Part shown: in pieces, positions 9,248-18,760 of the stretch | Layout of the letters: the number at the start of each line of letters is the position of its first letter | Position numbering within the stretch: position 1 is the stretch's first letter | Source of the DNA: a virus | Length of the DNA: 43,028 bases | IMG/VR virus record: IMGVR_UViG_3300014903_000007 | Coordinates: 1-43,028 of that record | Reading direction: 5' to 3' (one strand) | Translations under genes and position numbers: made by a program | Notes under the pieces: generated by a model | The model's input: only the letters and a program-made list of their open reading frames with translations | Told to the model about the DNA's origin: nothing | Database searches by the model: none

Positions 9248-10120
9248 CTAGCTATTAGCTGGGTTGCTACCGCTAAACCGATAGCGGAGCTCGCTTTCAA
9301 CAAGGGCCAAGTACCGTCGCAAGTCGCCAATGTCGTCCAACAGGCCATCCACTGCATTTGGACCTTCGTCGCCCAATATTGCGAATATGTTGTAGCCTTC
9401 GCGCTTGCCGATATTCTCAATGCGGTCCCACTTACGGGCCAGCATCATGAAGGCACCACAGCCACCACGCTTCTTCCAGGAGTCGCCGTAAGTGCCACCC
9501 TTCGCCAGTAGGACCTTTTCGTCGTTGTCCAGTACTTCGCGGAGGAATTGAAGGTTGTCGCATCCTGGGGGATAGACTGGTTCGACCGGAAGCACAGATT
9601 CAGACAGTCCTTTCGGAACATCCTCCGCCCCTGGTCCATCGCCCTTGATGAACGTACTGTTCCGGACGCCAAGAACATGGATTATTTCCTGCACGTTCTC
9701 CGTGAGAACATCAGTACCGTGTACCTGGAGGTCGTACTGCGCAGGCTTCGAGAACGACATGTCCTCGCCCTTGGCGTATAGACCCTTCGTGTCTCGCCTG
9801 CGGCACACACTGTCCGACGTATGCACGTAGACGAAGACTGCCTGGGGGCACAGCTCCTTGGCCCGTTGTCGTATCTCATGGGTCGGCAGGATGGTCGCGA
9901 TAATGACGTTGTGGGACTGGCGGTGCAGTAGGTTGGCAGTCTCAGCTATCCGCCGATTATTCTCCATCCTATCGTCGTCCGAAAACCCGAGGTCGCTGTT
10001 CAGACCTAGACGAGCTTCGTCTCCATCCAGCAGTACTCCTCCCAGATACTTTTCGAGTAGCTTGGCAGTTGTAGTCTTGCCCGCTCCACTTCTGCCGTAC
10101 AGCCATATGATATCAGACAT
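9248..10120 (-). CDS. APS-kinase-like domain fused to DUF1599-like domain
   Basis: 290 residues. Residues 1-150 match the adenylylsulfate (APS) kinase family closely: P-loop GRSGAGKTT at 9-17, LDGDEARLGLNSDLGFSDDD at 31-50 followed by RMENNRRIAE, and RDTKGLYAKGE at 109-119. All three are signatures of CysC, which phosphorylates APS to PAPS, the universal sulfuryl donor. After a linker, residues 190-280 (LLAKGGTYGDSWKKRGGCGA, DRIENIGKRE, DDIGDLRRYL) resemble DUF1599, a domain associated with phage nucleotide modification. The gene is last in a six-gene overlapping operon and starts eight bases inside the HD gene. It may make PAPS for the sulfotransferase-like neighbour. Alternatively the P-loop kinase may phosphorylate hydroxymethyl-dU in DNA. 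Confidence 0.8.
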   Translation of the reverse strand: MSDIIWLYGRSGAGKTTTAKLLEKYLGGVLLDGDEARLGLNSDLGFSDDDRMENNRRIAETANLLHRQSHNVIIATILPTHEIRQRAKELCPQAVFVYVHTSDSVCRRRDTKGLYAKGEDMSFSKPAQYDLQVHGTDVLTENVQEIIHVLGVRNSTFIKGDGPGAEDVPKGLSESVLPVEPVYPPGCDNLQFLREVLDNDEKVLLAKGGTYGDSWKKRGGCGAFMMLARKWDRIENIGKREGYNIFAILGDEGPNAVDGLLDDIGDLRRYLALVESELRYRFSGSNPANS

Positions 10121-10613
10121 GATTACTCTCCTTCAGTATATCGTTGAATATTGCTTCGACCTTATCATTCCACCAGTCACGATGCTCAGTCATCCACTGC
10201 GCACCACGGTCGAGGACTATGCGGTAGTTCGCGTTTCCCAGCTTCAGCTGAGACACGGTATGGAATAGCAGTTCCAGCATGTCTGCCAGCTTCAGGATTT
10301 TACGCTCTTCCGGACTGAGGTCGATATCGATTCCCATGTCCACTTCGACCTTCTGCTCAATCCGGTCGAGCAATTCCTTGAGCTCGGGGTTTCCCCACTT
10401 GGCGTGAGCCGGCACGTCGCCGGTGAACATTTCCGCGCAATCGTGAAAGAGCGCCTTCTCAATCAGCGCCGAGGGAACACTAGCCGTCGGCCAGATTTCC
10501 AGACAGATAATCGCCACTCCCCAGGAGTGGTCGGCCACGGTTTGATGTCGTGTGGATTCTACGGTGTGATACCTTAGTGTCTTGCCGCTTTCCATGACGT
10601 GCTTGATATTCAT
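10113..10613 (-). CDS. HD-domain nucleotide phosphohydrolase (YfbR-like)
   Basis: 166 residues from ATG 10613, which overlaps the stop of the thymidylate-synthase-like gene (TAATG) and has AGAGGAAG upstream. The metal-binding HD signature is complete by eye: RHQTVADHSW at 22-31, ALFHDCAEMFTGD at 54-66 with the HD pair at 57-58, and a later Asp in KLADMLELLF. YfbR-type enzymes dephosphorylate deoxynucleoside monophosphates. In phages that replace thymine such enzymes remove the competing normal nucleotide or adjust pools. Here it sits between the dUMP-modifying enzyme and the kinase fusion, so I infer a pool-shaping role in thymidine modification. Confidence 0.8.
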   Translation of the reverse strand: MNIKHVMESGKTLRYHTVESTRHQTVADHSWGVAIICLEIWPTASVPSALIEKALFHDCAEMFTGDVPAHAKWGNPELKELLDRIEQKVEVDMGIDIDLSPEERKILKLADMLELLFHTVSQLKLGNANYRIVLDRGAQWMTEHRDWWNDKVEAIFNDILKESNHV

Positions 10614-11638
10614 TACTTCTTCCTCTTGTTCAGCCAAGTAGTCGCGGCCGCTTTCCAGTCGTTGTCGATAGGCATCTTCATGACTTCCATACATGCTGCA
10701 TCGTAGTTGCCCGCCTTGTGGAAGAACCACGCGTTCTGCATAGGGATTGCGACCTGTGGGAAGAAGTCGTTGAAATAGGTGCGCTCTTCGTCACCCTCCA
10801 TGAAGGCTCGGAGATCCTCGTCGAAGTACTGCGGAATGTCAATAAGGTTGCGAGGGCGGAGCTTGTCCTTTTCATATCGATTCTCGTGTCCCAGTAACAA
10901 GTCCTCGAACTTCCTATCGAAGATTTCCTGGTACGCATGGAAGTCAGTAGAAATCTGCCAGTACTTGCCGATTTCAACTCCGATCATCTGCGCCACATAT
11001 TCCTGGAAGAAGCTGAAGTGAACGGCGTTCGCTCCGTAGCATCCCCAGATGGCGTCGTTGGACCGATTGAACACGATCATGTCGAGACGACCGTGCCGTA
11101 TCGAGAACTTGATCATGTCGTTACATGGAATATCTTTGCTGTCCGTAGCGAGATCATCTTCCGGACACCAGATGCTGCAGACCACCCGACGGTTCGATGG
11201 ATCTTTCTTCAGCATGTCGATGACGACTTCTAATTGATCCAGGGTAGCGTATTCGACCTCTTCAACTTCAACTCCTACATCGCCAATAATGACGCCGGTG
11301 GGGACCAGCCAGTTTCGCAGTCGATGTCCGTACGCTCCGTGGAAGGTCTCGCCGTCATCGGAGAATTCCTTCATGCGCTTATTATATTGGGCAAGCCATT
11401 CCACATCATTACGACCAGCCAGCATCCACAGGGACTCCATCAGGTGGAAGAATGGATTGGCATCGCGGAACCGATGAAACAAGACTCGTTCCTGAGGGTT
11501 CCGATAACAGGTGGTCACCGGCACTTGAATGGAGTATACGTCTCCAGCTCGTGAGCCGGCTGGTAAGCCGGACTCCTTCAACAGTTGCATACCAAATAGG
11601 TACGCATCGTTCACGTTTTCTGCGTATAGGGTAATCAT
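10613..11638 (-). CDS. Thymidylate synthase family protein, probable dUMP hydroxymethylase
   Basis: 341 residues with the thymidylate synthase core: ANPFFHLMESLWMLAGRND at 60-78, FHGAYGHRLR at 99-108, the dUMP phosphate-binding SNRRV at 148-152, catalytic Cys172 in DIPCND, and NRSNDAIWGCYGANAVHFSF at 191-210. Standard synthases read RSxDxxLGxPFNIAxY in the last motif. The GANxVHFS version seen here is, as I recall, typical of phage synthase homologues grouped with dUMP hydroxymethylases, which make 5-hydroxymethyl-dUMP for modified DNA. The ATG overlaps the glycosyltransferase stop (ATGA) and has GGAGACC upstream. Ordinary thymidylate synthesis cannot be excluded, but the neighbours favour hydroxymethylation. 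Confidence 0.85.
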   Translation of the reverse strand: MITLYAENVNDAYLFGMQLLKESGLPAGSRAGDVYSIQVPVTTCYRNPQERVLFHRFRDANPFFHLMESLWMLAGRNDVEWLAQYNKRMKEFSDDGETFHGAYGHRLRNWLVPTGVIIGDVGVEVEEVEYATLDQLEVVIDMLKKDPSNRRVVCSIWCPEDDLATDSKDIPCNDMIKFSIRHGRLDMIVFNRSNDAIWGCYGANAVHFSFFQEYVAQMIGVEIGKYWQISTDFHAYQEIFDRKFEDLLLGHENRYEKDKLRPRNLIDIPQYFDEDLRAFMEGDEERTYFNDFFPQVAIPMQNAWFFHKAGNYDAACMEVMKMPIDNDWKAAATTWLNKRKK

Positions 11639-12465
11639 TGGAAAAGGTCTCCTTCTTTCCGTAAGGTGAATCGCTTCTTCTTACCCTGTTCAAAGGCTTT
11701 CTTCCATGAGATGCGGACGTCCACACGACTCCCACCTCCCCAGGAAGATTTCGTCTTCTTTTCAACTACCTTCACAAATCCTGGATGCAGGTCGGCCAGC
11801 TTGTGCGCCTGCTCTTCCATCATTTCATGAGTCCTAAATCTGGAGCATCCACCTTCCGTGTTTGACCCTGCCTGATTGTGTGCGTATTTGTAGATAACGG
11901 CGTTCCGGTATCCAGCTTTCAACAGGGTTAGGGTCAGGTGGAAGTCTTCACGGATAATCACGTCTCGATAGTCGAAGCTCAATTTGCGGACGATATCTGC
12001 ATCGTAGAAGTTCGCTCGAATAGCCCGCGTATTGTAGACAATGTCCTCCTCCACTCGATTATTTCCTTCACGGGCGGAAACTGCACCGTGTGCAACTCCA
12101 GCATCCATCAGGGTGACTATGTCCTCGATCAATGTTTCGACGTCCACGAGCTCGGCGGTGACAAGCTTTGCCGATCCCACTTCTTCGCGGACGTAGAGGG
12201 CCAAGTCGTCGTCAAGTACGAGGTGTCGCCCTCCCCACCCTGTCAGGATCGACTGCCGGATATCACTGATTCTGTACTCGTCAGGAATAGCGATCACTTC
12301 AAATCCTTCGGGTATGTCTATTTCCGCCCACGCGAAGGCTTCACATACTGGAACGACCACTGTAACTTCGATGTCGCCACACGCAACCATCTCGTCCAGG
12401 AACCATCTCTCCAGAGTTGCCTGCCGCCCTAGCCTGCCTCGCGTGGGTACGAATACATGTATCAT
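11635..12465 (-). CDS. GT-A glycosyltransferase, TAGT-like, putative
   Basis: 276 residues. The chain opens with MIHVFVPTRGRLGRQATLER, like the start of TET/JBP-associated glycosyltransferases (TAGT). It carries HLVLDDDLAL at 81-90, the metal- and sugar-nucleotide-binding acidic motif of GT-A folds. Downstream come FDYRDVIIREDFHLTLTLLK with an acidic pair suitable for catalysis, and a basic C-terminal tail (FEQGKKKRFTLRKEGDLFQ) that could contact DNA. Overlaps of four bases on both sides tie it to the modification operon. The likely job is glycosylation of a hydroxymethylated base in DNA. Sugar and exact target cannot be read from sequence. Confidence 0.65.
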   Translation of the reverse strand: MIHVFVPTRGRLGRQATLERWFLDEMVACGDIEVTVVVPVCEAFAWAEIDIPEGFEVIAIPDEYRISDIRQSILTGWGGRHLVLDDDLALYVREEVGSAKLVTAELVDVETLIEDIVTLMDAGVAHGAVSAREGNNRVEEDIVYNTRAIRANFYDADIVRKLSFDYRDVIIREDFHLTLTLLKAGYRNAVIYKYAHNQAGSNTEGGCSRFRTHEMMEEQAHKLADLHPGFVKVVEKKTKSSWGGGSRVDVRISWKKAFEQGKKKRFTLRKEGDLFQ

Positions 12466-13193
12466 CTCAAACCTCCAAACTCTGCGTTCATCAGTAGATT
12501 CACTTCGTCTGAGAACTCCGGCGCGTTCACTTCCTTATGCCTGTCGAGTACTCTCATCTCGGACCCCTTCTTCTTGCGTTGAGAGAATGAGGAACCGTTT
12601 CCGTTCTTCGGAACAAAGTCTAGATCGAAGTTCGACACGTATGGCAGGCACAGCCTATTAGCCATCTTCTCTCGAGCGGAGGACGAACGCACCAGCCTGT
12701 CATACTTCAGTCTCTCCCAGGGACCGGACGCTGTAATGTGGTCCACCCAGAGCGGCTCTGTTCTACTGTTCTTCATGTTCCCAGCGTGAAAACTATTTAC
12801 CGAGCCGTCAGAATTGAATTGACGCATATGTCGCGAAGCCCACAAGTTATGGATGGAGCGATTGAACGTCAGAAATAGTGAAGGAAAGCCAGGGCCTACT
12901 TCCTTGTATCGCCCCCAAGCATCGGCAGTCGACAGGTCCTCAAAGGTGAACATGGAGTGAGCATCGCCGACACTCTTACTGTCCATTATTTCCTGGACAG
13001 CCTGGGCTCGCACTTTCCCAGTCAGCTGCTTCCCACCTTCGAACACTTCAGTCGCCGATTTTCGATCCCAGATACTCTTACCGCCCTTGGTGAGTCCATC
13101 GAAGTGGACAAACCTCTCGCGGTAGTGAGACATCAACCAATGTTGGAGGAAGTGGTTTCCACACCTTCTAAGCCCGACTCCTAGAATAATCAT
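12462..13193 (-). CDS. Sulfotransferase-like P-loop protein, putative
   Basis: 243 residues. The N-terminus MIILGVGLRRCGNHFLQHWL fits the 5'-phosphosulfate-binding loop of sulfotransferases ([KR][ST/C]G[TN]xxL in place of a Walker A). Residues 108-121 (LTFNRSIHNLWASR) fit the 3'-phosphate-binding motif, with Arg112 and Ser120 spaced eight residues apart, as in PAPS-dependent sulfotransferases (for example Arg130/Ser138 of human SULT1E1). The C-terminal third is basic. The gene overlaps both neighbours by four bases in the modification operon, and an APS-kinase-like domain lies three genes downstream. A PAPS-using enzyme acting on a modified base is my inference. It could also be a sulfotransferase-fold protein with another donor. 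Confidence 0.55.
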   Translation of the reverse strand: MIILGVGLRRCGNHFLQHWLMSHYRERFVHFDGLTKGGKSIWDRKSATEVFEGGKQLTGKVRAQAVQEIMDSKSVGDAHSMFTFEDLSTADAWGRYKEVGPGFPSLFLTFNRSIHNLWASRHMRQFNSDGSVNSFHAGNMKNSRTEPLWVDHITASGPWERLKYDRLVRSSSAREKMANRLCLPYVSNFDLDFVPKNGNGSSFSQRKKKGSEMRVLDRHKEVNAPEFSDEVNLLMNAEFGGLR

Positions 13194-14173
13194 TGCTGCC
13201 CCCTATACAGTGCCTTCGGTCGTCCATCGCCGTGAAGGGCGCGGAGGTATTTATCGGTCTCGCACAGGCTGTGCTCGATATCTCTCAGTTCGAGCTTCGG
13301 CACATGCTTCCCCGTCTTCTTCCCACTCTTCTCCAGGAGCTTACACATGAAGTTGAGACAATCGCTGTCCGTGACTTTTGCCTTCTTGTCTCCGAAGAAG
13401 ATGCGCCCTATTCCCCGCTTGGCTCCCGGTCCGGTATTGGCCCATCGCATGTGGTCTGATCCGTCGTAGTATCGGGTCCATCGTAAATCGGTGACAACTT
13501 CGTATGCGATGAATTTTCCGAATCCTTGATGTACTCGTAGACCATCCCACATTCCCTGCAGAGGTATAGGTCCTCCCCTCCTGGCAAGGGAAGGAGGTCG
13601 CTTAGCAAGGGATCTGAGAACGTCGTTGCAGGTGTAGTTGTGCTTAGGGCCGCTACGACCGCCCGCTGTGATAATGTAGCCAGCACCGTATATACGAAGA
13701 CCACTACGTTTCCTCGTGCTAAGGCAGTCCAGAAGCCTATCGCAGTACCGATCAAGATTCCCAGTAGGAAACCCAACGGCACCAAGAGTATCAGAAGTAT
13801 TAATTTGACGAGCGACACACATAGCAAACCAAAGATTCGGGTGATCATGATAGGGTTCCCTCCAATTCTCCCGCAGCCAGACAGTTTCTCGATCCAGTTC
13901 GCGGAAGACATTTGTGAATTTGTACTTGTCTAGGATTTGGTCTTTCGTCCACGGACGAGCTTGACCTTCTTCTTTCTTTTGATAGATGCGGTGTCTTTCG
14001 TTGATCCAGTACCAGAAGACGTCTTCTGCTTTCCAATTCTCAGTTGGGGTCCCTGATAGAAGGGATCGTTTCTTGGTAATTTTGAGAACAGCTTTGACTC
14101 CTTTATTATTCGGATCATCTGCTCTTGGAGAATGTATTGTGAGTTTCCCTCTACGTCCTGTGTTTTTGTACAT
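13190..14173 (-). CDS. DNA base hypermodification protein (aGPT-PPlase / HMUDK-helical superfamily)
   Basis: 327 residues. The core FWYWINERHRIY (about 53-64) then PWTKDQILDKYKFTNVFREL (74-93) is the hallmark of alpha-glutamyl/putrescinyl-thymine pyrophosphorylase-type proteins and the helical domain of 5-hmdU DNA kinases. Further family features are AGYIITAGGRSGPKH and GFGKFIAYEVVTDLRW. Members act on hydroxymethyl-dU or its phosphorylated form in DNA during thymidine hypermodification. ATG 14173 is the only usable start and has AAAGGA upstream, so the gene overlaps the primase-helicase gene by 244 bases in another frame. It opens the six-gene modification operon. Which reaction it performs (pyrophosphorylase or helper of a kinase) is unclear. 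Confidence 0.75.
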   Translation of the reverse strand: MYKNTGRRGKLTIHSPRADDPNNKGVKAVLKITKKRSLLSGTPTENWKAEDVFWYWINERHRIYQKKEEGQARPWTKDQILDKYKFTNVFRELDRETVWLRENWREPYHDHPNLWFAMCVARQINTSDTLGAVGFPTGNLDRYCDRLLDCLSTRKRSGLRIYGAGYIITAGGRSGPKHNYTCNDVLRSLAKRPPSLARRGGPIPLQGMWDGLRVHQGFGKFIAYEVVTDLRWTRYYDGSDHMRWANTGPGAKRGIGRIFFGDKKAKVTDSDCLNFMCKLLEKSGKKTGKHVPKLELRDIEHSLCETDKYLRALHGDGRPKALYRGQQ

Positions 14174-16116
14174 ATCTTCGTCCTTTCAAGCTTTATCACG
14201 ATGTCGCGCATTGTTTCTAGTGAAACTTCCCGAGTGCGCTTGTGCAGTGCCCTGAGTCCAATTGGACTCTCCACATTCGACAGGGCTCTTATCACCTTCA
14301 CAGTCAGACTGTCGGAGGTATGTATTGATATCCGCTTTATCAGTCGGCGTATTCTAATATCGTCCAATGTGTCGAGCCCGTAGTGCAGAGCCAGTCCTTG
14401 AGCCATCTTGATGAACTGCTTCGCTAAGCGGGGCAGGGCTTCTTGGACTGGTGCCATTGCCTGGACTCCAGAATACCTGTCGAAGGGGGCAACCGCCCTC
14501 GCCTTCGCACAGAATTCCGCCATGTCAACGATGAAGGTGTGAAACTTTGTGGTCTGCTCCGAGGCCTGAGGGACCTTATCTGAGTCGAACTTCCTGGCGA
14601 GGGAACGAAGACACGCGTCCTGTAGTTCGGCTCGCATCTTTTCCGATATGTCAGAATTGGCAATAGCCTTGAAGGCTCTATCACGGTCATCATGTCTTGC
14701 GAGTTCTTTATCTGAACGGAATTTGAGAAAGCGCTCACCCATCGCCGCCCCGCCATACGTATCGATCGCAGGAGTGACTCCAGCGATGAGCGAAAAGTTG
14801 AGATTGTTATACTCGCGGCGAACACCGTTTCCGAATAGCTTCTTAGTTTGGCCGTCGTACGCGTCGCGCAGCAATCCAAATACTTCGTCTCGGTCATTAT
14901 CATTCCCCTCCAGAAGTGGCGTCATATCTTTTATTATCAGCGCGGCTTGCTTGCCGTCTATCTCTGCGAACAGACTCGGATCTTCTCCACCCTGACCAGC
15001 GAAGCCGGACATGAGAGCCTTCGCGGTAACGGTGGATACTGGATGCACTGGATGCCAAGCCGAGCATGGAGTGAGACTTTCGGTCTTACTTCCAGATGGT
15101 GGGGCAACGATCAGAATCCAGAGTGGATCTCCTGGGAGGTAGGAAGCCCACAGGCAGCCCATCGTGATATCGATCAGGTCGCAGTTGTCCTGCTTCAGCC
15201 ACTTATTGAATACGTCGTGCAGCTCCAGGTGAGTTATCGGCTCCAGCGATTCTTGCTCGCGTTGGAGTGCGTCGTGATCGTCACCGATTTCTTCTTCTCC
15301 ACCGTCGGAGGTTAGTAGTGACGTGTATTGATTGTCCGAAATGTACTTCCAAGCCGTCTTCAGGCTGGCCATATTCTCGAGGATAAGGTCGTGAGTGTCG
15401 TACCCTTCTTCTTCATCCTCGTCCCACCGGAGAAAGTGCAGGCTCCTACAACTGTGTTTCACGAAGAGCGCGACACGGCGTGAGCCCTTCTGTCCAGGCT
15501 CGTCGTTGTCGTAGCACACGACTACTCTGCGACCTTTGAACCACGGCGACCACTCCTTCTTGAAATTACCTGCTCCAGGAACAGCGATCACAACACCTTC
15601 CTGTCCCATTTTGTGGAGCAGGTAGATCATCGCAATCCTGTCCCACTCACCCTCCACCAAGTACACGGGGTGGTCGTTGTCTGTGAGCTGGTCCGCGCCT
15701 AGTAGGCCTAGGCTTGTCCCCTTCATATTCCGTATCTGATATTTATTACTTCTATAGACTCCATGTCGTAAAGTAACTGAGACCCCTTCTGGGGTTCTTA
15801 TGCACCAGACAGGTTCCTTCCGGCTCTTGTCCCAGCCTAGGGACGGGTCTAACTTGAACGCTTCGGTCGGCAGTCCTCGCCGCGTGGACATTTGCTTGAT
15901 ACTAGCCTTCCGGAGATCGCCCTTGTATACCTGATCGAACATGTGTCCAAGTACCGATATAGAGTTTCCTCGTTCATCGCAGACCTTGCAGTGGTAGGTT
16001 GTCTTCTTTGGATCGACATACATCTTTTCCTTCTGACAGAATGGGCAGAGCCCGATGAGTTGAGAGCCTTCTTTTTCCAGCTCCCACCCAAGTGTTTCGT
16101 AGATTTCTATCGTCAT
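13930..16116 (-). CDS. DNA primase-helicase
   Basis: 728 residues with three parts. A zinc finger (Cys24, Cys27, Cys43, Cys46 in LCPFC and YHCKVCD) reads template. A TOPRIM primase core shows VYLVEGEWDR at 151-160 with catalytic Glu155 and CYDNDEPGQK at 201-210. A C-terminal ATPase has a divergent P-loop (APPSGSKTES, about 335-344) and GGAAMGERFLKFR as likely arginine-finger region. The product primes and opens the replication fork with the polymerase encoded directly upstream, whose stop it overlaps (ATGA). The last ~75 residues are Lys/Ser-rich (IKRKKKVKLVRGRKTKS), and their DNA also encodes the start of the base-modification protein. Confidence 0.85.
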   Translation of the reverse strand: MTIEIYETLGWELEKEGSQLIGLCPFCQKEKMYVDPKKTTYHCKVCDERGNSISVLGHMFDQVYKGDLRKASIKQMSTRRGLPTEAFKLDPSLGWDKSRKEPVWCIRTPEGVSVTLRHGVYRSNKYQIRNMKGTSLGLLGADQLTDNDHPVYLVEGEWDRIAMIYLLHKMGQEGVVIAVPGAGNFKKEWSPWFKGRRVVVCYDNDEPGQKGSRRVALFVKHSCRSLHFLRWDEDEEEGYDTHDLILENMASLKTAWKYISDNQYTSLLTSDGGEEEIGDDHDALQREQESLEPITHLELHDVFNKWLKQDNCDLIDITMGCLWASYLPGDPLWILIVAPPSGSKTESLTPCSAWHPVHPVSTVTAKALMSGFAGQGGEDPSLFAEIDGKQAALIIKDMTPLLEGNDNDRDEVFGLLRDAYDGQTKKLFGNGVRREYNNLNFSLIAGVTPAIDTYGGAAMGERFLKFRSDKELARHDDRDRAFKAIANSDISEKMRAELQDACLRSLARKFDSDKVPQASEQTTKFHTFIVDMAEFCAKARAVAPFDRYSGVQAMAPVQEALPRLAKQFIKMAQGLALHYGLDTLDDIRIRRLIKRISIHTSDSLTVKVIRALSNVESPIGLRALHKRTREVSLETMRDIVIKLERTKICTKTQDVEGNSQYILQEQMIRIIKESKLFSKLPRNDPFYQGPQLRIGKQKTSSGTGSTKDTASIKRKKKVKLVRGRKTKS

Positions 16117-18200
16117 ACTGCTATCTCGTAAGATTCACTCCATCTTTCATCGGCGATCTTCATGCCGATTGGAAATGGGATTGGGGCACCTAAAAACTTA
16201 TAGTCCACAGCCATCGCCAGCGCGATATCCTTCATCACCTTCTCACTGTGTATCTTCTTGTCCTCTTCTATTAGGAGTTCATCGTGGATAGTGAGTAGTT
16301 GATCCAACTTCCCACGGTACTTCTTTTTCTGGCAGAGGTCGTGAGTGGCGATCATGCCATTCTTGAGCAGGTCGGCCGACGAACCCTGGATTAGATAGTT
16401 ACATGCGCGATATTCCAGTCCTCGTTGGATTGGGTACTCGCGTCCATACGGATTTACGACGTACCCGTCAGCTTGCGCCGCCTTCATGGATGAGCGCATG
16501 AATTTTTGAACTGCTGGGAATATCTCAAAGTACTGCGCCTTGAACTTCTTGGCCTCGGCAGTCGTCCGTCCAAGCGCCGTAGCCGTAAGCTCTGCTCCCT
16601 GTCCGTAGGTGATTCCGAAGTTCAACGCCTTGTTGATCTTCCGGTCCATCTTCCGCAGCTTCAGCGCCTTCATCTCCCGCGTAGTCGGCTTCTCACCTGC
16701 TGCCAGCTTCTGCTCGGCTACCCTTGCTGCACCACGGTCGTACTGAACTAGATTGGCCATGTCCGCAACGATTTGGTGAGCATCACCACCCTTGGCCAGC
16801 TCGTCCACGAACTTCCAGTCCTTCGCCAGGAGGGCAAGTACCCATACTTCGATCTGAGAGAAGTCAGGAATCAGGAACCGGCAGCCCTTACGGGGGATAA
16901 AGCATTCTCGCGGGCGGTACGGAATATCTACCTTTTTCTTACCGCTATCGTCTGACGCCACGTTCTGTAGATTTGGATGATGGGCGGAGAATCTTCCAGT
17001 AATTGGCCCCGCCTGCTTATAGTTTGGATGAACTATCCGACCATCCCTAGTCTTGGTGGAGTACTTCAAGTACGACTTGGTGTAGCCTAGCATCGTGGTC
17101 GCGGCACTATTCATCAGCAGGTTGTGCGCCAGCTCATCGTTGACTTTCACAGATCCATCGTCGTTATGCGACAGCGCTATGCTCACCAGGAAGTCGCCTC
17201 CACACTTCGGATTTCTCCCAGTATTCTGACAGACCTTGCATCCCTCACCCTTGCAGTGCATGCAGTCAGTGTAGACTTTCGACTTGCCCTTTCGAGAATA
17301 CTGCTGCGGGGTGTGGCCCAGCTCCCCAAAGAACAGTCCAGTCATCTGCTTCGGCGACCTGGGATTGAATCCTTCTGGTGTCGATTCCGCAATAATATTC
17401 GTGCTATCGTCCTGTATTTTTTCGTAGAAATTGATGACCTCATTCGTACGCTTGCCATCAATTCGGACCCCCTTAGATTCCATCGATTCAATAACACGCA
17501 TGAGTTTTTTCTCACGCTTGTACACGTTGCGGAGACTAGGTCTTCTGTCAAATTCCGTTTCCTGAGCTTGGAATAGAGCCATGGTCCGATAAGCGTCCAG
17601 CTCAGCGTATTTCCGGCATGCTTCCGGGCAACCAAGCGCATAGTCAGCCTTCGTGTCGTCACCGACGGGCCACCCATTCTTTCGGGCATACCTTCTCCCG
17701 GCAGCGACAGATCTCGTAAGGTCTTTTTGATCATCGTCCGAGATTCCAAGATACTTGATCGACAACGGCTTGAGACCATACGAGTGCTCCGCCGGATTGA
17801 GGACATGCATCCGTATGAGTGTATCATGACATTCTCCGCGTATCTTGAATCCGGACTCAACGAGCATGTGATTGTCAAATTGGTAGTTGTGAAAGATCTT
17901 CGAAAGCGTCGGGTCATACAGCAAATCCTGGAGGAGACCGAATGATTTGTTATTCCGTATGACCCGACGGTTCCGGGGATCTATCATCCACCGGACGTAC
18001 GCCATGTTTCCTTCGTAGTCGCACATACTAAATGCGAACGGCCGACATGGCCAAACTTCTCTATCCACACCATATTCACCCCAGGGATCAAGACCGGTTG
18101 TCTCCGTGTCTATCGCGAACATCTTCGCTTTCCGAGGATTGAATTTGCCCATCTCAATTTCGACGCGGCCTATTCGTGGTGGGATAATGAGTTTAGCCAT
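16113..18200 (-). CDS. polA: DNA polymerase I (family A) with zinc-module insertion
   Basis: 695 residues, replicative polymerase. The 3'-5' exonuclease has Exo I DTETTGL at 31-37, Exo II HNYQFDNHML at 104-113 and Exo III YAELD at 198-202. The polymerase has motif A PDFSQIEVWVLALLAKD (Asp446), motif B KINKALNFGITYGQG (521-535) and motif C IHDELLIEE. Motif A carries Trp where most relatives have Arg. At residues 311-335 a Cys-rich insert (Cys313, 316, 321, 324, 333; CMHCKGEGCKVC) like a half DnaJ zinc finger interrupts the thumb, near where T7 polymerase has its thioredoxin-binding loop. Good ribosome site GGAGGCCGC. No 5' nuclease domain. Confidence 0.9.
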   Translation of the reverse strand: MAKLIIPPRIGRVEIEMGKFNPRKAKMFAIDTETTGLDPWGEYGVDREVWPCRPFAFSMCDYEGNMAYVRWMIDPRNRRVIRNNKSFGLLQDLLYDPTLSKIFHNYQFDNHMLVESGFKIRGECHDTLIRMHVLNPAEHSYGLKPLSIKYLGISDDDQKDLTRSVAAGRRYARKNGWPVGDDTKADYALGCPEACRKYAELDAYRTMALFQAQETEFDRRPSLRNVYKREKKLMRVIESMESKGVRIDGKRTNEVINFYEKIQDDSTNIIAESTPEGFNPRSPKQMTGLFFGELGHTPQQYSRKGKSKVYTDCMHCKGEGCKVCQNTGRNPKCGGDFLVSIALSHNDDGSVKVNDELAHNLLMNSAATTMLGYTKSYLKYSTKTRDGRIVHPNYKQAGPITGRFSAHHPNLQNVASDDSGKKKVDIPYRPRECFIPRKGCRFLIPDFSQIEVWVLALLAKDWKFVDELAKGGDAHQIVADMANLVQYDRGAARVAEQKLAAGEKPTTREMKALKLRKMDRKINKALNFGITYGQGAELTATALGRTTAEAKKFKAQYFEIFPAVQKFMRSSMKAAQADGYVVNPYGREYPIQRGLEYRACNYLIQGSSADLLKNGMIATHDLCQKKKYRGKLDQLLTIHDELLIEEDKKIHSEKVMKDIALAMAVDYKFLGAPIPFPIGMKIADERWSESYEIAV

Positions 18201-18217: not shown

Positions 18218-18760
18218 CTAATCGAGGTCAAGTTGTTCTGGGGTGACGGTTACGATCTTGCCTTCCGGAGTGCGGAGCTTGACCTTACCTTCCTCGTGGA
18301 GGACTTTCTTGACTACGCAGGTTTTCTTCTTCCCGCGAATCTTGCACTTGACTTTCATACCGACTTCGATTTCGACTTCGTCTTCTTCGTCGTCTTCGTC
18401 GTCTTCGTCGTTGGTTTCGACTTCGTCGTCGTCGTCTTCTTCGTCGTCTTCGTCGTTGCTGTCGTAGAGGCCTTCGTCTTCAAGCAGGAGTTTGATGATG
18501 TCCTCTTCCGAGATGCCACGCTTCAGCTTGATGTCGCGCTTCTTGGCCTCCTGGCGCAACTGGCCACGGCTCATGTCAGCGTACTTGTCTTCGCCCTCGT
18601 CTTCGCTCTCGTCCGAGCCACTCTTCTGAGAGGTACCTTTTGTAGAGGACTTCTCCCCTTTCCCAGACTTCGTAGGGTTTTCTACACCGCCAAGCATGGC
18701 AAGCACAGCTGGAAAGATTGGGTCGTCACCGTAGACGGTGATGGATTTTGTTGCGGTCAT
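18218..18760 (-). CDS. Acidic protein with HeH/SAP-like motif
   Basis: 180 residues with GAGGAGGAATAAACC before the ATG. The N-terminal part is followed by a Lys/Ser/Gly linker. A short helix-extended-loop-helix-like unit follows (MSRGQLRQEAKKRDIKLKRG, then ISEEDIIKLLLED). A run of about 40 residues is almost only Asp and Glu. The last ~45 residues form a small beta domain (VGMKVKCKIRGKKKTCVVKK, ending VTPEQLDLD). The HeH-like unit also occurs at the end of the next gene upstream. Placed between polymerase and ssDNA-binding protein, it is probably a replication accessory protein or DNA mimic. No firm family. Confidence 0.55.
   Translation of the reverse strand: MTATKSITVYGDDPIFPAVLAMLGGVENPTKSGKGEKSSTKGTSQKSGSDESEDEGEDKYADMSRGQLRQEAKKRDIKLKRGISEEDIIKLLLEDEGLYDSNDEDDEEDDDDEVETNDEDDEDDEEDEVEIEVGMKVKCKIRGKKKTCVVKKVLHEEGKVKLRTPEGKIVTVTPEQLDLD
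18370..18470. repeat. Low-complexity TCGTCTTCG-type repeat inside the acidic gene
   Basis: The plus strand here is a run of variants of TCGTCTTCG and TCGTCG, encoding the Asp/Glu block on the minus strand. It is a coding simple repeat likely to vary in length by slippage, not a separate element. Confidence 0.7.

Follow-up and report, generated by a model that had tools for sequence, protein, structure and literature searches.

A phage thymidine hypermodification operon with a putative sulfation add-on

The 43,028-bp virus record IMGVR_UViG_3300014903_000007 from IMG/VR, analysed over its whole length (positions 1 to 43,028, the window), carries at 9248-14173 on the minus strand a run of six genes, in which the core of a thymidine hypermodification operon is combined with a gene for a sulfotransferase-like protein (ST) and a fusion gene that contains an adenosine 5'-phosphosulfate (APS) kinase domain (Table 1). 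All six open reading frames (ORFs) were confirmed on this strand. In the junction sequences, 4-base ATGA overlaps connect HMUDK_hel with ST, ST with the TAGT gene and TAGT with the thymidylate synthase (TS) gene. The TS/HD junction is TAATG, an overlap of 1 base if HD starts at 10613 (166 aa, compared to 205 aa in the mechanically called ORF), and the HD and APS kinase genes share 8 bases in ATGTCTGA. The start of HMUDK_hel probably lies downstream of 14173, because this first ATG is located deep within the primase coding sequence and the Pfam alignment begins only at residue 51. Gene overlaps and the existence of relatives with like gene order exclude that the operon arose by chance or artefact. 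The six genes have a GC content of 0.50-0.55, close to the 0.51 of polymerase and primase, and there is therefore no sign that ST or the APS kinase arrived very recently.

Table 1. Features of the operon and of the adjoining region in the window
Feature	Position	Strand	Evidence
Conserved operon-partner domain (C-terminal part of the fusion protein)	9248..9655	-	homologue in 87/109 distinct operons
APS kinase domain (N-terminal part of the fusion protein)	9656..10120	-	PF01583 1.1e-31
HD / YfbR-like 5'-deoxynucleotidase, 166 aa from TAATG start	10113..10613	-	PF12917 6e-17
Thymidylate synthase homologue, putative dUMP hydroxymethylase	10613..11638	-	PF00303 4e-24, phrog_5131 2.5e-110
TAGT family DNA glycosyltransferase, DDD motif	11635..12465	-	PF20691 5e-8, phrog_842 5e-35
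Sulfotransferase-like protein (ST), 243 aa	12462..13193	-	family alignment, profile-profile match, AlphaFold2 fold
HMUDK_hel / aGPT-PPlase1 homologue	13190..14173	-	PF18723 3.7e-49, phrog_2396 3.5e-54
Primase and family A DNA polymerase	13930..18200	-	directly upstream of operon; Pfam/PHROG

TS homologues of this type make 5-hydroxymethyl-dUMP (hmdUMP), HD nucleotidases trim the pool of competing deoxynucleoside monophosphates (dNMPs), and TAGT enzymes glycosylate hydroxymethylated bases in DNA. The window contains both a TS homologue and HMUDK_hel, the combination by which operons based on 5-hydroxymethyldeoxyuridine (hmdU) are recognised. The TS is 35-47% identical to the TS proteins of 22 other hypermodification operons, and HMUDK_hel is 33% identical to ORF055 of Pseudomonas phage M6 (tblastn, 9e-34). 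TAGT exceeds the gathering score of PF20691 (33.5 vs 27.5 bits), so that TAGT, HD nucleotidase, TS and aGPT-PPlase1, the set typical of the pelagiphage branch, are all present. A 26-row profile of the 5-hmdU DNA kinase HMUDK found no convincing match in the window, its best hit being a 61-aa ORF at chance level (E 0.011); the kinase that marks the M6/ViI branch was thus not detected there. An earlier note, made from the sequence alone, had proposed six genes lying end to end with overlaps of 1-8 bases and an hmdU-type thymidine hypermodification, and both proposals agree with the overlaps of 4, 4, 4, 1 and 8 bases and with the TS and HMUDK_hel matches. Its assignments to HMUDK_hel/aGPT-PPlase1, TAGT, TS, HD and APS kinase were likewise recovered with Pfam and PHROG profiles; its DUF1599 label, discussed below, was not.

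Relatives of the window proteins led to well over 100 IMG/VR records that contain TS and HMUDK_hel, usually together with the C-terminal partner domain and HD. The comparison covered 109 distinct operons (loci L002-L206), most of them in viral records and the others on bacterial genome contigs. HD was present in 63 of these operons, and the partner domain is usually encoded by a stand-alone gene. TAGT and the HMUDK kinase occurred together only once, compared to 49 operons with TAGT alone, 23 with HMUDK alone and 36 with neither (Fisher p 1e-6, uncorrected for kinship and including some fragmentary records). HMUDK_hel was found in company of either enzyme and is therefore not tied to the kinase, which suggests that it is more than a kinase domain. 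There appear to be two chemical branches, a kinase and a glycosyltransferase branch, and by its gene content the window belongs to the latter. Because HMUDK was not found in the window and the two enzymes nearly exclude each other, a glycosylation pathway as in HTVC023P-like pelagiphages seems to fit the window better than the kinase branch of M6 and ViI.

Two loci, L104 and L105, match the gene order of the window: polymerase, primase, HMUDK_hel, a variable gene, TAGT and TS. In the window, ST occupies the slot between HMUDK_hel and TAGT; L105 has a radical S-adenosylmethionine (SAM) enzyme there, and in L104 a pair of TAGT-like genes separates HMUDK_hel from TS. Such gene orders point to an exchangeable tailoring slot in hypermodification operons, which may accept a sulfotransferase, a radical SAM enzyme or a second glycosyltransferase. 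The variable tailoring genes (L105:10819-12153, L104:6649-7647, L007:4108-8397 and L138:3-3022) encode a radical SAM enzyme with B12 domain, a second TAGT, glycosyltransferase-like, HAD and nucleoside triphosphate (NTP)-transferase-like proteins and a PIG-L deacetylase, and hint at further undescribed DNA sugars. TS genes of the operon type were also seen in bacterial genome contigs of Hyphomicrobium and others (L186, L189, L190, L206 and other GTDB contigs), which are possibly prophages.

The 243-aa ST protein on its own matched nothing in Pfam, PHROG, NCBIfam or the PDB sequences, and searches with the single sequence found nothing in INPHARED or IMG/VR either; its assignment therefore rests on family, profile and fold evidence. 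Its N-terminus, GVGLRRCGNHFLQHW, resembles a 5'-phosphosulfate loop (GLRRCGNH), and the segment FNRSIHNLWASR contains R112-(7)-S120 with the R-(7)-S spacing of a 3'-phosphate motif; a GSSF motif is present as well. We take this loop and the R-(7)-S motif to be signatures of sulfotransferases that use 3'-phosphoadenosine 5'-phosphosulfate (PAPS). A motif scan of IMG/VR with GLRR[SC]GNH....W yielded ten loci, whose ST-family proteins align over their full length (L234: phmmer 1.5e-10, small database). Nine aligned sequences have 18 invariant columns, including G7, L8, R9, R10, G12, N13, H14, E85, R112, S120 and SSF; position C11 of the R10-C-G-N-H loop is variable, and a Walker lysine is absent. 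The L234/L243 contig was found independently by tblastn with the window ST (5e-6), and a profile search identified one bacterial homologue (2.4e-26). In hhalign, the family matched a profile of bacterial and phage sulfotransferases with Prob 81% (E 1.3e-5, 157 collinear columns), compared to 0.4-0.9 for the HMUDK kinase, HMUDK_hel and TS profiles used as negative controls, and a bacterial ST profile picked the 243-aa ST as the only ORF of the window (E 0.048). The family profile gave only chance-level matches among the PDB sequences. AlphaFold2 modelling with the nine sequences reached pLDDT 71.6 and pTM 0.73 (a model from the single sequence, pLDDT 32, was discarded), and the best PDB match of the model in Foldseek was 3ap3, TPST2 with bound PAP (E 8.5e-4), followed by TPST1, an olefin-synthase ST, 3-OST, Stf0 and SULT, interspersed with nucleotide kinases. 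In the BFVD fold search, a phage sulfotransferase domain protein ranked second. Motifs, profiles and predicted fold agree with the description of this protein as sulfotransferase-like in the earlier note, and let us assume with fairly high confidence that it is a divergent PAPS-type sulfotransferase. Matches in the bacterial genomes L240-L242 were dismissed as short local similarities within unrelated ORFs of about 500 aa. GLRRSGNH proteins of this family (L230-L239 and L244) occur in large phages and one bacterium, and the members scanned had no Pfam match.

The fusion protein has 290 aa, and its N-terminal domain passes the gathering score of PF01583 by a wide margin (110.3 vs 21.1 bits). 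APS kinases in the PDB match down to 1e-20, with a bifunctional CysN/CysC as the best hit. In the alignment, the domain retains DGDEARLGLNSDLGFSDDDRMEN, the APS-binding motif DGD..R..L..DLGF....R..N and the KGLY lid; retention of the APS-binding residues was a test that the earlier note had set for the kinase. The DUF1599 label that it gave to the remainder of the protein could not be upheld: PF07659 matched neither the fusion protein nor relatives of its C-terminal domain, scanned singly, nor anything in 12 viral records. The C-terminal domain is nonetheless real and conserved and is unnamed in Pfam. Fusion of the APS kinase to the usual partner domain of these operons would therefore tie PAPS synthesis to DNA modification. 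None of the proteins scanned was recognisable as an ATP sulfurylase. In L050 (777-1805), a single ORF covers the HD domain and the partner domain to which the window's APS kinase is joined.

ST genes were detected within hypermodification operons of four records, namely the window, L007, L008 and L138. In L008 (IMGVR_UViG_3300006753_000108), the gene for a Sulfotransfer_1 protein above the cut-off (PF00685, 41.9 bits, 1e-10) lies between those for HD and the partner domain; the operon also includes HMUDK_hel, HMUDK (PF18748 1.3e-5, just under the cut-off) and TS. In L007 (3300015263_000182), TS is immediately preceded by a PF13469-like protein (below cut-off), and the operon also contains TAGT, a second glycosyltransferase-like ORF, a gene for a HAD-like hydrolase and a weak match to NTP-transferases. 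The order in L138 (3300033143_001775) is glycosyltransferase-like ORF, PIG-L deacetylase, HMUDK_hel, APS-kinase family, ST, TS, HD and partner domain. Here the kinase-family gene (PF01583 2.7e-12, 47.4 bits) adjoins the ST gene, whose product is homologous to the L007 ST (5e-40; PF13469 4e-5, below cut-off). The STs of the window, of L008 and of L007/L138 represent three types, which suggests that the sulfation add-on was acquired on more than one occasion. Within a set of 110 records gathered from the window's own relatives, APS kinases were confined to two of the four records with an ST (window and L138; Fisher 0.001 with and 0.03 without the window, from tiny numbers of both genes). A search of 50 related viral records yielded no APS kinase above the cut-off.

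Alternatively, ST and APS kinase might act on a target other than DNA, such as a glycan on the surface of virion or host, a small molecule or a protein, and merely share the transcription unit. In keeping with this, inspection of neighbouring ORFs placed the ST relatives of L234 and L239 apparently among glycosyltransferase-like genes, in phages where the hypermodification core was not found, and in L095 an APS kinase gene accompanies a Sulfotransfer_3 gene away from any hypermodification operon. Considering that translational coupling or fusion links the window ST and APS kinase to genes of the modification operon, and that STs recur within such operons in three other records, we consider a non-DNA target unlikely. 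In L095 (9112-10963), and also in L097 and L098, an ST gene (PF13469 1e-17, Sulfotransfer_3 in L095) overlaps the APS kinase gene, and no hypermodification core was found in these phages. The other phage APS kinases (L094-L103) were rejected as hypermodification genes, being located outside such operons where checked.

In the pathway that we propose, the TS homologue would convert dUMP to hmdUMP, and the HD nucleotidase would drain dTMP or some other competitor among the dNMPs, allowing 5-hmdU to enter the DNA as the phage replicates. TAGT would then add a sugar to the 5-hydroxymethyl group in DNA, while HMUDK_hel probably acts on or presents the modified base. The APS kinase domain would produce PAPS from host APS, and the 243-aa ST would use this PAPS as sulfuryl donor for a hydroxyl of the glycan. 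The product would be a bulky, negatively charged base, expected to block restriction enzymes. That all six genes are translationally coupled supports a joint pathway. The enzyme families for hmdUMP formation, glycosylation by TAGT and PAPS synthesis are established by sequence, and that for the ST step by profile and fold comparisons; substrates, sugar identity and sulfation site are what we infer from them. Some thymine in the phage DNA is probably replaced by a base bearing a sugar and presumably a sulfate. We lean slightly towards a sulfate ester on phage DNA, likeliest on the sugar at 5-hydroxymethyl-dU, placed there by a PAPS-making fusion protein and a new ST family as part of a recurrent branch with at least three ST types. 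For the complete sequence of glycosylation of hmdU by TAGT followed by sulfation of the glycan from phage-made PAPS, we regard the case as evenly poised. The earlier note had left the choice between hmdU that is first glycosylated and then sulfated and sulfation of the base itself. Its sulfation proposal gained from the ST-like motifs and fold, the APS kinase and the STs in three other operons, one of them adjoining an APS-kinase-family gene, and sulfation of the DNA is putative. A sulfated sugar appears likelier than a sulfated base, because TAGT adjoins ST, the L007 and L138 operons contain sugar-tailoring genes and the ST relatives of L234 and L239 lie apparently among glycosyltransferase-like genes.

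Several observations weigh against this interpretation. L008, which is our chief ground for caution, combines an ST with the HMUDK kinase and has no TAGT, so that in this operon something other than a TAGT sugar may be the acceptor. The 243-aa protein has no curated Pfam or NCBIfam match above cut-off for the sulfotransferase superfamily, the TM-scores of its model to sulfotransferases are modest (about 0.33-0.49) with P-loop kinases in the same fold list, and no hypermodification core was found in the other phages with this ST family. The APS kinase scores 112.9 bits with TIGR00455 (apsK, 1.4e-32), under the NCBIfam equivalog cut-off of 138.7, and is about ten residues short around the canonical FTGI motif after the lid; in L138 the kinase is even shorter and KGLY is missing. 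The shortened FTGI segment would also suit a different assignment: the APS-kinase-like domain would act as the operon's 5-hmdU DNA kinase, the 243-aa protein would be a degenerate P-loop protein that lacks PAPS activity, and the pathway would end in an M6-type base or in plain glycosyl-hmdU. Both HMUDK and APS kinase belong to the P-loop kinases, and the domain gives a weak match to the HMUDK profile (E 0.022). We nevertheless judge this improbable, given the strong APS_kinase match with its retained APS-binding residues, the near-exclusion of HMUDK and TAGT, by which no kinase is expected here, and the invariant PAPS-type motifs of an ST family that has no Walker lysine. The 243-aa protein itself was also rejected as an HMUDK-type kinase: it matches the L008 HMUDK weakly (E 0.006 over 45 residues), the HMUDK profile fails to recover it and hhalign gives P 0.9.

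Sulfate might also serve as a leaving group. ST would then sulfate the 5-hydroxymethyl group of hmdU, and the reactive 5-sulfooxymethyl-dU would be displaced by a nucleophile through HMUDK_hel or another enzyme, replacing the kinase/pyrophosphate activation of the M6 type. Allylic and benzylic-type sulfate esters are good leaving groups, and HMUDK_hel (aGPT-PPlase1-type) is present in a window where HMUDK reaches only chance level. Yet TAGT, the neighbour of ST, would be a competitor for that hydroxyl, no amino-acid or pyridoxal phosphate (PLP)-type enzyme was recognised in the operon, and L008 carries both the HMUDK kinase and an ST, which makes this route quite improbable in our view. Sulfation of a TAGT-added sugar remains our preferred reading. 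If it is true, it would introduce a new chemical group, a sulfate ester, and a PAPS-dependent step into DNA modification, provide phage DNA with extra negative charge against restriction enzymes and offer enzymes able to place sulfated handles on DNA.

Outside the operon, the window encodes terminase, portal, major head and tail fibre proteins, a family A polymerase, a primase, an SNF2 helicase and an ATP-dependent ligase. At 18370-18458, an imperfect TCG-rich tandem repeat with a period of 9/45 lies within a 180-aa ORF (18218-18760, minus strand).

The core hypermodification operon without sulfation genes is already published for pelagiphages and M6-like phages; new are the recurrent ST and PAPS-kinase genes inside such operons, including one fusion, and an ST family without library entry. 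Neither a sulfotransferase in DNA hypermodification nor a described sulfated DNA base was found in our searches of the literature, for the former in the PMC open library. Compared to PAPS-dependent sulfotransferases (PF00685/PF13469; TPST, Stf0, SULT and 3-OST), the window ST shares the 5'-loop, the 3'-phosphate motif and the predicted fold, whereas its GLRR[SCT]GNH family has no Pfam match. Thymidine hypermodification in Pseudomonas phage M6 and Salmonella phage ViI was reportedly described by Lee et al. in 2018; the window resembles these phages in its TS homologue and aGPT-PPlase1/HMUDK_hel, but has no recognisable HMUDK kinase and instead carries TAGT, ST and APS kinase. The TAGT of T6-type phages belongs to the same glycosyltransferase family (PF20691) and adds a sugar to glucosyl-hydroxymethylcytosine (glucosyl-hmC), i.e. 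to already glucosylated DNA (PMC13216743). Because the operon contains a dUMP-type TS, hmdU is the likely acceptor of the window TAGT, unlike glucosyl-hmC in T6. HTVC023P-type pelagiphages have the same core operon with a TAGT-like glycosyltransferase, and no sulfotransferase is mentioned for them (PMC9599517), whereas the window has both ST and an APS kinase.

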